This document shows positions 48,536 to 57,257 of a stretch of DNA of 64,000 bases, one piece after another; position 1 is the stretch's first letter, and the number at the start of each line of letters is the position of its first letter. The position numbers and the translations under genes are program-made. The stretch comes from Nannochloropsis salina CCMP1776 (lineage: Eukaryota; Sar; Eustigmatophyceae; Eustigmatales; Monodopsidaceae). The stretch is taken from positions 1,148,848 through 1,212,847 of the forward strand of contig SDOX01000002.1 in NCBI GenBank assembly GCA_004565275.1. Direction: 5' to 3'. The notes under the pieces were generated by a model. The model searched no databases, was not told the origin of the DNA, and saw only the letters and a list, made by a program, of their open reading frames with translations.

Positions 48536-49646
<1,111 letters not shown>

Positions 49647-50167: not shown

Positions 50168-51433
50168 TTTATAAAATCAACGATTGATGTGGCGATTATC
50201 TTCTTTTTTTTTTTAACTAAGCGAAGGATTTGGTGCAAAAGAGCACACATTTTATGGGCAAGTGTTACAATGAACAGGGACGAGCAACATAACGAGCTAA
50301 TAAATGTTGGAAAACTCGAGAAACGGTAAGTTTATCACGTAGCCAGCAGTACACTCCTTCCAACGAGTCCCACTAACGTGATTTATATCAGACGCTATGA
50401 CACCCTAGCAATTCTTCGGTGTGACCGTCATAGCAACTCTGTAGCAGCCGCTTTTCTCGATCTTGCTGTCTACGCTTATTAAACCGATCGGTACTGTCCG
50501 GTGCGACGCACTTACTAGACCGGCCATCGCGGGTAGACATGTCTTATGACGTGCTGATAATTGTAGAAACGCATCTGAGGCCCTTCGACACGTCTGTTGA
50601 GGCACGCAGCAGTTCTCGAAACGAAAACAAATGTGGTGCTTGAGATTGTCCTTTGCTTCCTTCGAGGCATGATTTAGAATTTCAACAGCAAGCATATGTA
50701 TAGCTCTTGCCCTACCGGTGCAATGAAAATTACTATATTCTTAATGTTGTACCCATTCTCTGTCCTTTTTTTGCCCCTTCCAATTGCTTATTTTGCACTA
50801 CATCCACTGAATGGGTCACATCTACTGGTACGTACGAGATGGCAGGTTGATGCCAACTAGACCTGCTCTTAATTTTGCACATCATTTTTCATGTCGAACG
50901 TATTGCAATACGCCCTCAATTCGAAGCAAAGGGGTTGATTTTTACATAGGGCATCCTCTAAGATAACTCCGAAGAAAAAGCCGATACGGCAAACAAAAGG
51001 GGGGTGCGTGGATTGTGACGGCAGGAGCACCATTTTCACGTCTGTACCCCTCTCAGCGATCTTCCGGTATATGTACCCTCCGATACTTCCACGATGCATG
51101 CTCAGTTCTTTACTTAGGCCTTTGCATTGAGTAACTGGGTATACATGGCAAATATGGACTGTGCAAGGCATGTACGGATACTAAATCTTGGAGCACGTCC
51201 CACGGGACTGGTCCTCGCTAATCCGTCAACAACTGACCATAGGAACCCCAATTAACAGGTGACCGTGTCTGGATAAAAGGTTAAAGGCCGACCAACTTCC
51301 TGCACAGTCTCAAATCTGTAGTCGAGCATCGACTGTCCCCCTCAAAGGAATTAGCCGTACCCAAGGGCCCAAATAAAAGCGGAATAGCAGCGCTCTTGGT
51401 AGCGGTGGAAATAGTCAAGCAACGTTCAAATAT
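50168..51433. other. AT-richer spacer with two orphan ORFs
   Basis: Upstream of the inositol synthase fusion. It holds two minus-strand ATG frames of 96 and 100 residues (50405-50695 and 50869-51171), both intronless, without recognisable features. They could be exons of one gene, relics, or chance. The final stretch presumably holds the fusion gene's promoter. Confidence 0.45.
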
Positions 51434-54001
51434 ATGTCAGAGACGTCTTCCTTTGGCATTCTCATCGTAGGCCTAGGGGGAAATAACGGAGTGACCTTGC
51501 TGGCTGGTCTCCGGGCCAATCAGCTCGGTTTGGAATGGGAAGCGCCGACTGGAAAGGTTAAGGCGAATTACTTAGGATGTATTACGCAACTGCCAAAAAA
51601 AGGTGGAAAGGGAGGATACAAGGAGGCATACGAGCTGGCCGATGCAAATCGGGCCGCAGTGGGAGGATGGGACATTCGCTCGACCCCACTCGGCGACGCC
51701 CTGTATGCCAGCCACGTCTTGGACTATGACCTCGTGCGGCAAGTGCGCACGTCCCTGAACCAAGTGGAAATTTGGAAAGGTGTCTGGGATCCGTCGTTCA
51801 TTGGTGAAAGCCAGCATGCTACGGCCACGAACGCAGTGGATTTGAGCACTACCACCCACGCCCAAGCGCTGGCCCTCCTGCGAGCAGACATCCGACGTTT
51901 TCGGCGCCTGCACAACATCCCTTTGGCCGGGCATATCACCGTGATCTGGTCCGCAAGTGTGGAACGTCCAAGCCTGGGCGACTATCCTACTGCCACCGCC
52001 TTGTTGGCTGGCATCGAGGCTAACGACCCTGAAGTCTCCCCATCCTTGCTCTATGCGGCAGCGGCCTGTCTGGAAGGCTGCTCTTTCGTGAACGGAGGGT
52101 CCCAAAATACCCTGTGCCCTGGCTTGACCGAGCTGGCCGCCTCGCGTGCCCAGCTACACACGCCCAACGGGCCCGTGAAAGCTCGGTGCTACGTCCTTGG
52201 CACGGATTTCAAGGCCGGTCAAACCAAGTTCAAAACGGCCGCAGTGGAGTACCTGCGGGCCTTGGGCCTGGCCCCGACGGTGATAGCCTCCTCCAACCAC
52301 CTGGGAAACAACGACATGCTGAATTTGACGAGCAAGAAAACGCTGGACGCGAAAATGCGGGTGAAAAGCGACATCTTTGCAGGGTGGGAGGAAGCGATCG
52401 ACCATCAGGTCCGGGTCATGTACACCCCTTTCATGGGGGACGAGAAACGGGACGTGGTCGAGTACACCAGCTTCGGGTTCCTGGGCGCGCCGCACACGAT
52501 GCTGACCTATACCCGCTGCATGGACTCAATACTCTGCGTCCCCCTCATGCTGGACGTGGCGGTGTGGTGCGATTATTTTGCGCGAAAGAATGTGCTCCCC
52601 CGACGGGTGGCTTTGGCGACCGCCTACCTGTTCAAGGTCCCGGAGGGGGCGGCCAAGGGCACCGACCCTGGCTTCTTCCATCAGATGGCCGCCTTGGAGG
52701 ACGTTCTAGCCGAAACCAAGGAGGGAGGGCGGGATGGAGGAGTCGGTCGCGGGTTGACAAGGAAGGGGTTGGTCAAGGACGTCGAGGGAGGGGGGGGCAC
52801 GACAGAGCCCTGGGTGGGAGGGGTGCTATGCGTGGGGCTGAGCTGCTTGGATTTGATGCTGGTGGGCGCGTCTGGAAATGGGGAGACCTTTGGGGCCATA
52901 AACACCTTTCAAACGCAGGTGTTTTGCCCGGGCGGCGCGGCGCCACAGGCCTCTGTGGCCTTGGCGGACATGCTGGGGATGGGAGGGAGGGAGGGAGGGA
53001 GGGAATGCGGCTTTACTACGTCCATCGTCCGCGTCTTGACCAAGGTGGGTCGGGACGTGCACGGAGACGAGCTGCTGCGGCAGTTGGAACAGGCGGGGAC
53101 CGACACCTCCCTGGTCATCCGAGACGCTCAGCATTGCACCAGTTTGGCGGTGCTGCCCATTTTGGCCTCTTCAGGAGCCCGGGGCTGCTTTGTGAACCTG
53201 CAGGCGAACGATTCCTTCACCCCGGGGGAGGCCTTGGCTGCCCTGAGGGAGGGAGTGCAAGCAGGCGAGGTCCAGGGCGTGGCCGCGTTTCACTTTGGGT
53301 ACCCCCACCTGATGATCAATTTCCAAGGTCCAGCCTTGTGTAATTTTTTCCAAGCAGCGGCAGAAATTCTAGATGGGGCCAATGGGGGGGAGAAGGAGGT
53401 GGGAAGGCGCCCCGCGAGGAGAAGACTGTTGATAAGCATGGACTTGAACGGAGTAACGACGCGAAATAGCGACCCGGATGTCCTGGCGGAGGCGTGGGCG
53501 ATGACGGACGTGCTGCATTTGAATCAGGAGGAGGCTGGCTTGCTCTTGGACTGGGAGGCGACGGGCCTGGGTGCCTTCGATGAGGTCCTCTCCCTTCCCT
53601 CCCTGCGGGCGGCAGGGGATGCTTTGCTGCAAAATGGCCTGGGCGTCGTGGCCCTGACGCTGGGGGAGCAGGGGGCGTACGTCAAGGTCACAAATGATGA
53701 AAAACGCTTGCAGGCGTCCGCAACCTTGGCGTGGCAGGCTGCCAAGTGGGTCGGTCAGGAGGCCTTTCTACCTCCCTTCCCCGTGCAAGCGGGCGCAGAG
53801 GTGAATACGAATGGGGCCGGCGACGCCTTCATTGCAGGGTTATTGGCGGCGATGCTCTGTAAGACTGAGTCGTTGAGTCTGAAGCAAGCCACTTGCTTCG
53901 CTTTGCTGACAGCCCGGGAGCGGGTTGACTCTTTACGACGGGCCAGCACGTCCAAGGCTTCGTACAACGAACTTTTGGCGGAGGCGATGAAGTTCAGATG
54001 A
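51434..54001 (+). CDS. Fused myo-inositol-3-phosphate synthase / PfkB sugar kinase
   Basis: One 855-residue open frame in a single exon. Residues 1 to about 430 are an inositol-phosphate synthase that converts glucose-6-phosphate to inositol-3-phosphate. They show [14 protein letters not shown] (NAD site), [50 protein letters not shown], and the Lys of [18 protein letters not shown] and AYLFKVP where the yeast enzyme has catalytic lysines. The usual 50-60 residue N-terminal arm is missing. A Gly-rich linker leads to a PfkB/ribokinase-fold kinase (about 459-855): [45 protein letters not shown], and the anion-hole/base motif [16 protein letters not shown] (Asp about 796). No frameshift or stop lies between the halves. 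Kinase substrate is unknown; inositol is the obvious candidate, since plant myo-inositol kinase is PfkB-type. Confidence 0.93.
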
Positions 54002-54743: not shown

Positions 54744-57257
54744 ATGAGGCGGCGACGACCGTCATGGCTCTACAGAGGCATTTCCGCCTTTTCGACGGTG
54801 ATGCTTTGCGTGAATGTGGTGCATGCCACACCATCAAGAGGGTTCACGAGGCATGATTTGCCTTCCCACAGCAGGTAGGTCGGAACGAGAAAGACGTGTC
54901 ACTTAAAGCAACTTGCCCTCAAGCAAGATTCTCCAGAGCCGGGATGGCCTCTTTTATGGGGACATGCCCCGTCTGTACACACTACGTTCGCGCTTGTCCG
55001 TTCTTCTAAGATGCATCCCTGTCTGTCCCTCTGTCTGAACTTGTTTCGCACCCCATTGCCCATCATGCACAGCGCGTTCATCCCCCGCCTCCCCGTCTCA
55101 AGGGCATGCCAAGGACCCGATCGAGGCCCCGCCAATGACAAAAACACCAGAAGGAGCAGCATTCGTAAGATGGCCATGTCAATCAACCATCGGAAACCGC
55201 CAAGAAAATACCGTGGGCCCATCCAGGGTTACCGCGACGAACCCCTCCACCACATCCCCCCACCTCAAAGCGCCCCACGTCCCATACCCACGCCCTCCTC
55301 CTCTTCCCCCTCTCCACCCTCCTCCGCACGAGCACCTCGCATTGCGGCCAGTATTCCCCTCTCGAAAGCAGCCAGTGCTGCCGCAGCCTCTCCGTTTGAG
55401 CCGTTGCACCCGAGCCTTTCCCACTTCCCCCCGTCCTCCCCCTCCACCTCGCCCTCCGCCGCCGGCGCGGCCACCCAGGGGTCTCATCCCACGTACAAAC
55501 TCCCTTCCCAGACCGTAGAATGGCAGCGACTGGTCCGCCACGCGGCAGAAATCAAGGCCTTACACTTGCGGCATTTGGTCCAAGATCCGGTGCGTTCGGA
55601 TGCTTTGTGCGTGGATTATGACGGTGTGTACATGGACTACAGCCGGCAACAGATGACAATGGAGACGCGGACGCTCTTGATCGAGCTGGCCAAGCGGACG
55701 CAGGTTGGGGAGAAAGTGGCGGCCATGGCTCGAGGCGAGAAGATCAACCACACGGAAGGCCGGGCCGTCCTGCACATGGCCACGCGGGCGGGCCGGGAGG
55801 AAAGCGTGATAGTCGACGGGGTAGACGTGGTCCGCCAAGTCCACAGGGTGCTGGACAAGGTCAAGGCTTTTTCAGAGGGGGTCCGCCAGGGCACGATTCG
55901 GGGGGCGACGGGCAAGCGGATCCGGAATATTGTGGCCGTGGGCATTGGGGGCAGCTACCTAGGGCCCGCCTGCATCCACGAGGTGTTCAAGACGGAGGAG
56001 GAAGGCTCGCAGTCCTGCCGGGACTTTCGGCTCCGTTTCCTCTCGAACGTGGACCCGGTAGACGTGGCACGGGCCCAGGAGAAACTCGACCCGGAGGAGA
56101 CCTTGGTGGTGGTGGTCAGCAAGTCCTTCGCCACCGCCGAGACCATGCTGAACGCGCGGACGATGCGGCAATGGCTGTGGGACGGTATGGGCACCCACCC
56201 GGATGTATGTGCCAAACACATGGCGGCCTGTGCTTCCGCCTCGGCCACGCAGTTGGTGGAGGCGTTCGGAATTCCCAGCGAACGTCTTTTTGAATTTTGG
56301 GACTGGGTGGGCGGCCGTTACAGCGTCTGCGCCTCCCCCGGGGCCTTGCCCATCTCGCTGAAATTCGGCTTCTCGGTCTTCGAAAAATTCTTGGCGGGGG
56401 CTCGGAGCATGGACCGTCACTTCCTCACAGCCCCTTTCGAGAAGAATTTGCCCGTCCTGATGGGTCTATTGGGGGTGTGGAACATGTCTTTCCTGGGCTA
56501 CCGTTGTCGGACGATCATCCCTTACGCGGAGGCGATGATGAAATTCCCCGCGCACATCCAGCAGGTGGACATGGAGAGCAACGGCAAGCATGTGACGGTG
56601 GACGGGGAGGAGATCAACTACGACATTGGCGAGATCGATTTCGGCGAGCCGGGCACCAACGGCCAGCATTCTTTCTTCCAGCTCTTGCACATGGGCCAGG
56701 TGGTCCCCGTGGATTTCATTGGCTTCGCCGAGTCCCAAAAAGCCTTGCACGTGGCGGGGGAAGAATTGTCCTCCCACGATGAGCTCATGTGCAATTTCTT
56801 TGCCCAACCGGATGCCCTGGCCGTTGGGAAAACGGGGGCCGAGTTGCTGGCCGAAGGGATCCCGCCTGACCACGTCCCACACCGGACCTTCAAGGGCAAC
56901 CGCCCTTCCCTCTCCTTGTTGCTCCCCCGCCTGAACGCGTATTCCATGGGGCAGCTCTTGGCCCTCTACGAGCATCGAACCGCCGTCCAGGGCTTTGTCT
57001 GGCACGTGAATTCCTTCGACCAGTGGGGGGTGGAGCTGGGGAAGCAGCTGGCAAAGTCGGTCCGGGAGGAGATGAAATTGGCGCGGACAGGGCAGGCTCC
57101 GAATTTGCATGCATTGGTGCCCGCAACGGCACGCATCTTGCAGCGGTATTGGAGGGGTGGGGGGGGAGAAGGGGGGCAAGGAAAGGAGGCTGGGGGCGAG
57201 GAGGGTTTGGGGGAAAGCCAGGAGGGACAGGAGGGGCTCGGGCATGTGAATAATTGA
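54744..57257 (+). CDS. PGI: Glucose-6-phosphate isomerase with presequence exon
   Basis: Interconverts glucose-6- and fructose-6-phosphate. The main exon (55073-57257) holds the enzyme: AVGIGGSYLGPACIHEVF, VVVVSKSFATAETMLNART, WDWVGGRYSVCASPGALPIS, GEPGTNGQHSFFQLLHMGQV, DFIGFAESQ and SFDQWGVELGKQLAKSV. I infer a first exon, 54744-54874, joined in phase 2 (GTAGGT donor, ATGCACAG acceptor). It adds MRRRRPSWLYRGISAFSTVM, then LCVNVVHATPSRGF, a signal peptide followed by a transit-like stretch. The alternative start at 55011 lies inside this proposed intron. A Pro/Ser-rich spacer of about 100 residues precedes the enzyme, and the C-terminus has a Gly/Glu low-complexity tail. With the first exon the protein (771 residues) would enter the secretory/plastid route. 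Confidence 0.9.

Follow-up and report, generated by a model that had tools for sequence, protein, structure and literature searches.

A natural fusion of a MIPS-like cyclase and a PfkB-type kinase in Nannochloropsis salina and other photosynthetic stramenopiles

In the window studied here (the whole stretch of Nannochloropsis salina DNA that was analysed, 64,000 nucleotides), one gene seems to join two enzymes. One half resembles 1L-myo-inositol-1-phosphate synthase, which is the same enzyme as inositol-3-phosphate synthase (MIPS), and the other is a kinase of the PfkB family. The locus raises the question of whether this is one protein and, if it is, what a cyclase and a kinase would do together in an alga.

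A single frame for two enzymes

The natural fusion coding for one protein is real. A single frame of 855 codons (51434-54001, + strand) encodes both the MIPS-like half and the PfkB kinase half, and re-deriving the open reading frame returned it uninterrupted at the coordinates of the original prediction. The stop-free stretch opens at 51377 and first reaches an ATG at 51434; from base composition alone, a stop-free frame of such length has a probability of about 1e-13. The parts of the protein are placed as follows.

51434..52729, + strand: residues 1-432, the MIPS-like half, with a Rossmann part that binds NAD and a catalytic alpha/beta part
52730..52813, + strand: Gly/Lys-rich interdomain linker, residues 433-460, with low pLDDT, no splice donor and no GC break
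52814..53998, + strand: PfkB / ribokinase-fold kinase half, residues 461-855

Both halves had been predicted to be complete, and Pfam, conserved catalytic residues and structure models agree. NAD_binding_5 (PF07994) covers residues 8-425 with 192 bits (curated cut-off 25) and Inos-1-P_synth (PF01658) residues 262-365 with 85 bits (cut-off 27), and PfkB (PF00294) reaches 67 bits in two stretches (cut-off 25.8). The structure models of the halves are good and match solved structures of the MIPS fold and the ribokinase fold, respectively. The linker is predicted to be disordered (pLDDT <50 at residues 433-456), and the model is unsure about how the two domains lie relative to each other (pTM 0.61), so channelling between the halves is putative.

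That two adjacent genes were merged by assembly or ORF calling is hardly credible, and we found no point in favour of it. An intron or sequence error at the junction, which the original prediction named as a sign of two separate genes, was not seen: there is one frame, a scan of the linker region (52600-52850) contained no GTRAG donor, and the linker has no drop in GC; GC goes down to 48% on both flanks of the fusion gene. The recurrence in relatives also speaks against an artefact. In the homologue set (the best 120 of 277 matches at E <=0.001, from 8000 candidates scored) 70 of the 120 proteins listed contain both halves and 50 are MIPS-like alone; the 70 were drawn from several data sources, transcriptomes among them. 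A search in other stramenopiles had been proposed as a check on the fusion, and these 70 include brown algae and diatoms. The named sources of fused proteins include Ectocarpus siliculosus, Chrysoparadoxa australica, Phaeothamnion confervicola, Seminavis robusta, Fistulifera solaris, Nitzschia inconspicua, Epithemia clementina and Mayamaea pseudoterrestris. Three fused proteins (P0029, P0043 and P0048) are labelled as complete ORFs of MMETSP transcripts with both halves, so a single mRNA spans both halves in those species. Judging from the sequences, the fusion is common to diatoms, brown algae and their kin, where it accompanies the usual MIPS.

The original prediction knew of no described enzyme built in this way, and among the papers listed by searches of an open-access full-text library none pointed to a MIPS-PfkB architecture; in a study of oomycete domain fusions (PMC2705460) a term search of the main text found neither inositol nor PfkB. 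The two families are known; their combination in one protein and the distribution of that protein among photosynthetic stramenopiles are apparently undescribed.

The MIPS-like half and the canonical enzyme

Residues of the MIPS-like half were mapped through an alignment with yeast MIPS (1jkf) and the canonical paralogue of the same genome, and column conservation in the fused proteins was taken from an alignment of 71 rows (A1). Yeast Lys369, Lys373, Lys412 and Lys489 correspond to K307, K311, K338 and K401, and yeast Asp320, Asp438 and Asn354-Asp356 to D258, D364 and N292-D294. All of these columns (K307, K311, K338, K401, D258, N292, N293, D294 and D364) are invariant in A1. The main positions are these.

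52205..52207, + strand: Asp258, equal to yeast MIPS Asp320 (1jkf alignment; invariant in A1); close by, T257 and A261 replace a canonical Asp and Ser
52352..52366, + strand: Lys307 and Lys311, equal to yeast Lys369/Lys373, in the active-site capping helix (1jkf alignment; invariant in A1)
52445..52447, + strand: Lys338, equal to yeast Lys412 (1jkf alignment; invariant in A1)
52634..52636, + strand: Lys401, equal to yeast Lys489 (via the canonical paralogue; invariant in A1)

In yeast numbering, Asp320, Asp438 and the NND motif are catalytic residues of MIPS. The role of the MIPS lysines and of the capping helix is described in PMC11348189.

When 121 canonical rows were compared with 121 MIPS-like rows, 41 positions were fixed differently and 80 were fixed alike (at >=93%). 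Canonical D303 and S307 have become T257 and A261, beside D258 and K260, and G341 has become M295, just after NND. The residues around the two capping-helix lysines have changed from S352/I355/S356 to A306/R309/V310, those after Lys338 from A396/D398 to D340/V342, and canonical T417 is R361 near D364. Since several of the 41 fixed differences lie beside the active site, the MIPS-like half appears to be a diverged paralogue and its role is probably altered. Such a paralogue would have kept the chemistry and changed its specificity or control.

Compared with eukaryotic MIPS (yeast INO1 1jkf, C. elegans 1vko and rice 9m53), the fold and the catalytic lysines and aspartates are the same, but the algal half lacks the N-terminal arm, has a shortened loop after Lys311, carries the 41 fixed substitutions and is fused to a kinase. 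The missing arm had been predicted and is confirmed, as residue 5 aligns with yeast residue 64. About the tetramer, for which it was said to matter, the absence of the arm alone says little, however: archaeal MIPS (392 aa) is also armless and aligns from its residue 1.

A genome search with PF07994 gave two places, the fusion gene and a second one on the same contig at 367318. The second locus (L003, 363000-372900) encodes a canonical MIPS of 536 aa, obtained after removal of two inferred introns, with the N-terminal arm present. Identity to the MIPS-like half is 32-39% for canonical MIPS (median 35%, 120/120 rows compared), 53-82% for fused relatives (70/70 among the matches listed) and 61-66% for stand-alone MIPS-like proteins (50/50 among the matches listed). 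In a tree of 60 rows, canonical and MIPS-like proteins are split with an SH-aLRT of 100. Both a fusion (P0044) and a canonical MIPS (P0249) are present in Seminavis robusta, and oomycete canonical MIPS was found among the canonical rows. The Nannochloropsis genome also has inositol-monophosphatase-family genes (8 matches, 6 above the cut-off), and because canonical MIPS and several of these genes are present, the fusion need not be the source of free inositol. Two Saccharina INO1 contigs are reported to share a single Ectocarpus homologue (PMC6742357), and one Ectocarpus MIPS gene is listed (PMC4108028). Scans for relatives of the MIPS-like half by pattern and tblastn found none in prokaryotic genomes (31 pattern matches) or viral contigs (65 pattern matches), so these methods do not point to an origin in bacteria or viruses.

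The kinase half and the history of the fusion

The invariant A1 columns of the kinase half include G500, G501 and G622-H625, and D473, N697, E700 and D797 are kept in >=90% of the rows. Three motifs stand out.

52931..52936, + strand: Gly500-Gly501, the PfkB substrate-side GG motif (invariant in A1)
53297..53308, + strand: G-Y-P-H motif, residues 622-625, a signature of the kinase subfamily that the free-standing kinases aligned with it carry too
53804..53830, + strand: NTNGAGDAF with Asp797, the expected catalytic base (A1; motif type in 63/70 fused relatives)

The motifs of PfkB kinases are GG, the substrate Asp, N-xx-E and GAGD with the catalytic Asp. The NTNGAGDAF signature is as first described, with its Asp at 797 instead of about 796. 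A motif of the GAGD type is missing from P0003, P0017, P0053, P0060, P0062, P0067 and P0120 among the 70 fused relatives listed, and P0003 ends before the position. Loss of the ATP and sugar residues in relatives had been named as a sign against a working kinase; in the 71-row alignment they are conserved, and the catalytic motifs are kept across the family.

Two side observations are added here. A GGGA tandem repeat in the kinase coding sequence (52975-53005) encodes a GREGGRE insert, similar in P0001, at a site of possibly variable length. An HMG box (PF00505), odd for a metabolic enzyme, is present in 11 of the 70 fused rows listed (P0018, P0022, P0030 and P0044 included), and where two such rows were aligned, the box forms a long insertion that follows the GAGD helix of the kinase half.

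What the kinase acts on was approached through its closest relatives. The NCBIfam scan placed ribokinase first (TIGR02152, 53.6 bits), well below the equivalog cut-off of 299.65, and among solved structures the closest ones listed belong to ribokinases and to other kinases of sugars or nucleosides. Identity to ribokinase/PfkB sugar kinases (1rkd, 3in1, ketohexokinase 3nbv and sulfofructose kinase 7ag6) is 15-24%; the algal kinase differs from them in its own G-Y-P-H and D-[LI]-N-G signatures. The two inositol kinases described in PMC5931981 belong to the ribokinase family and contact inositol by a Gln-xxx-Arg pair, the acceptor contacts being an Asp and this pair, plus the catalytic Asp. In the algal kinase Asp473 and Asp797, the putative counterparts of the two Asp, are conserved in A1, and no Q-xxx-R pair is among the conserved columns of the 71 aligned rows. 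The myo-inositol 3-kinase MI3K_TK (4XF7) and the PPi-dependent TM0415 have the ribokinase family in common with the algal kinase, and their product is the one proposed in the original prediction; judged by the conserved columns, the Q-xxx-R pair is theirs and not that of the alga. The Thermococcus structure (4XF7, T. kodakarensis) was not in the 60 of 114 profile matches listed nor in the 50 structural rows, which does not count against kinship. The identification of this half as a myo-inositol kinase is therefore not supported as it was written, given closest structures that are sugar or nucleoside kinases and no conserved Q-xxx-R.

The closest prokaryote-type relatives are of a bacterial PfkB family at 24-31% identity (eight were used in alignment A5, from Paenibacillus, Cohnella, Chloroflexota, Planctomycetota and others); F-G-Y-P is in common, but the bacterial members are stand-alone and distant. 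At least 587 bacterial stretches encode a relative of the kinase half, and in the best 80 retained (L015-L094) the neighbours include a DeoC/LacD aldolase (33 loci), a Gfo/Idh/MocA dehydrogenase (33) and a DeoR-type regulator (25). As 32, 32 and 23 of these, respectively, fall in Paenibacillaceae, which make up 39 of the loci, and most of the remaining 41 are without them, the cluster says little about the algal kinase. The bacterial context hints only weakly at an ancestral sugar kinase. The Paenibacillaceae cluster also contains DUF4432 and resembles a sugar-catabolism pathway.

The kinase half, used as query, had 61 matches, including fragments of fused proteins. Free-standing kinases of centric diatoms form a clade with Phaeomonas parva inside it, and deeper free-standing kinases are found in Rhodosorus marinus and others, so the kinase may be independent of MIPS. 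Three named Thalassiosira have a stand-alone MIPS-like protein (P0081, P0101 and P0115); T. profunda (P0101 and P0144) and T. exigua (P0115 and P0158) have separate MIPS-like and kinase proteins, and for the third (P0081) no named kinase match was among the 61. The MIPS tree was built from 33 fused, 14 stand-alone and 13 canonical rows (out of 71, 50 and 121) and the kinase tree from 23 fused, 13 stand-alone and 5 outgroup rows. Left out of the latter were the fused-protein fragments P0121-P0123, P0125-P0127 and P0160, as well as P0020, the distant P0171-P0176 and P0178-P0180, and a few others that stand alone. In both trees the stand-alone forms are placed among the fused ones, which favours a later fission of a fused ancestor. 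A topology with all fused rows in a single clade was not rejected, however (p-AU 0.488 for MIPS and 0.154 for the kinase), so the stand-alone forms may instead be the state before fusion. In a kinase tree with the fragments included the fused and stand-alone labels were mixed, with 10 changes. A protein from a MAG labelled 'Myxococcota bacterium' (P0095) lies inside the stand-alone MIPS-like clade, beside diatom rows, and is most likely algal DNA in a bacterial bin.

Possible function of the fused protein

We consider it rather likely that the protein is a bifunctional cyclitol-phosphate enzyme, in which a MIPS-type cyclase is coupled to a ribokinase-family kinase. The N-terminal half would be an NAD-dependent aldol cyclase of the MIPS type, turning a hexose 6-phosphate into a cyclitol phosphate, the C-terminal half would be an ATP-dependent kinase whose substrate lies close by in that pathway, and their coupling would keep the intermediate local. 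Ribokinase-family enzymes near the algal kinase mostly phosphorylate a primary hydroxyl, and cyclitols only have secondary ones. Together with the lack of a conserved Q-xxx-R, this favours hexose-phosphate supply or phosphorylation of the product over inositol salvage. Among the kinase roles we lean first, and tentatively, to a feeding one, in which the kinase would add a phosphate to a free hexose or ketose at its primary hydroxyl and so provide the substrate of the cyclase. Further phosphorylation of the cyclitol phosphate is doubtful, and to the same degree so are inositol salvage and some other role, a regulatory one included. We infer that both halves are active, the cyclase with a specialised substrate, product or regulation and the kinase coupled to it.

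Two other genes in the window are recorded here. Next downstream on the same strand lies a phosphoglucose isomerase gene (55011-57257, +; PF00342, 601 bits), one of two in the genome. The enzyme handles the hexose phosphates used by MIPS; the adjacency, noticed after the fact, may mark a functional neighbour or be a coincidence. A ubiquitin-ribosomal protein S27a fusion gene is at 48536-49192 on the minus strand.

The original prediction saw in the kinase a possible myo-inositol kinase, with which the fusion could run both the de novo and the salvage route to inositol 3-phosphate (Ins3P). From general knowledge both chemistries can yield Ins3P, and Asp473 and Asp797 are conserved; known inositol kinases are of the ribokinase family (PMC5931981). 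Yet no Q-xxx-R pair is seen in the conserved columns of the 71 rows, NCBIfam ranks ribokinase first, though far under its cut-off, and the cyclase half is diverged from canonical MIPS. The two-route enzyme is thus possible and not favoured, and on the whole unlikely. The kinase half could also have little catalytic power and serve as a regulatory or sensing domain, adjusting the activity of a second MIPS that is under regulation; MIPS is called a rate-limiting, regulated step in PMC11348189, and the HMG box of the 11 fused rows, in the kinase half of the two aligned, could also point to regulation. As the family as a whole, aligned free-standing kinases included, has kept the kinase's catalytic motifs, we regard this as improbable.

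There is a reasonable possibility, though short of an expectation, that the MIPS half yields a product other than Ins3P, such as another inositol isomer or a deoxy- or five-membered cyclitol, and that the kinase phosphorylates this product or its precursor; this overlaps with the bifunctional enzyme that we prefer and sharpens it. The 41 fixed changes, with T257, A261, M295, A306/R309/V310 and R361 among them, are in favour, and canonical MIPS already covers Ins3P. The product of the MIPS orthologue Ari2 is reportedly a five-membered ring. Isochrysis galbana, which comes in below, is not a stramenopile. Ari2 acts in aristeromycin biosynthesis, as cited in PMC11348189, and PMC5334607 reports the non-inositol cyclitol osmolyte cyclohexanetetrol in marine diatoms, with a cited title on Nitzschia ovalis. 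However, all the catalytic residues remain, which fits ordinary Ins3P synthesis, and the link between the fusion and any cyclitol is hypothetical; cyclohexanetetrol is putatively present in I. galbana too (PMC7998644), and the papers listed on cyclohexanetetrol deal mostly with plant extracts.

Of the original prediction, then, the fusion and its complete halves stand, and the fusion recurs in other stramenopile algae; the myo-inositol kinase is not supported as it was written, and the MIPS half is, with 41 fixed differences, not a plain MIPS. Tentatively, photosynthetic stramenopiles might share an undescribed cyclitol pathway with a second cyclase of altered active site and its own sugar or cyclitol kinase, leading to a phosphorylated cyclitol beyond canonical MIPS. 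Among the matches listed, named records of the fused proteins are called inositol-3-phosphate or myo-inositol-1-phosphate synthase, 'hypothetical' or 'unnamed', and the kinase is in no name, so pathway maps and expression studies may pool the fusion with ordinary MIPS, which the same cells can have as well. Diatoms, kelps and Nannochloropsis-like algae matter for ocean carbon and biotechnology, and a two-headed sugar/inositol enzyme that is conserved there seems to lack an assignment. If the pathway is true, its product could possibly lead on to a cyclitol osmolyte, for example diatom cyclohexanetetrol, or else to a compound used in the wall or in signalling.
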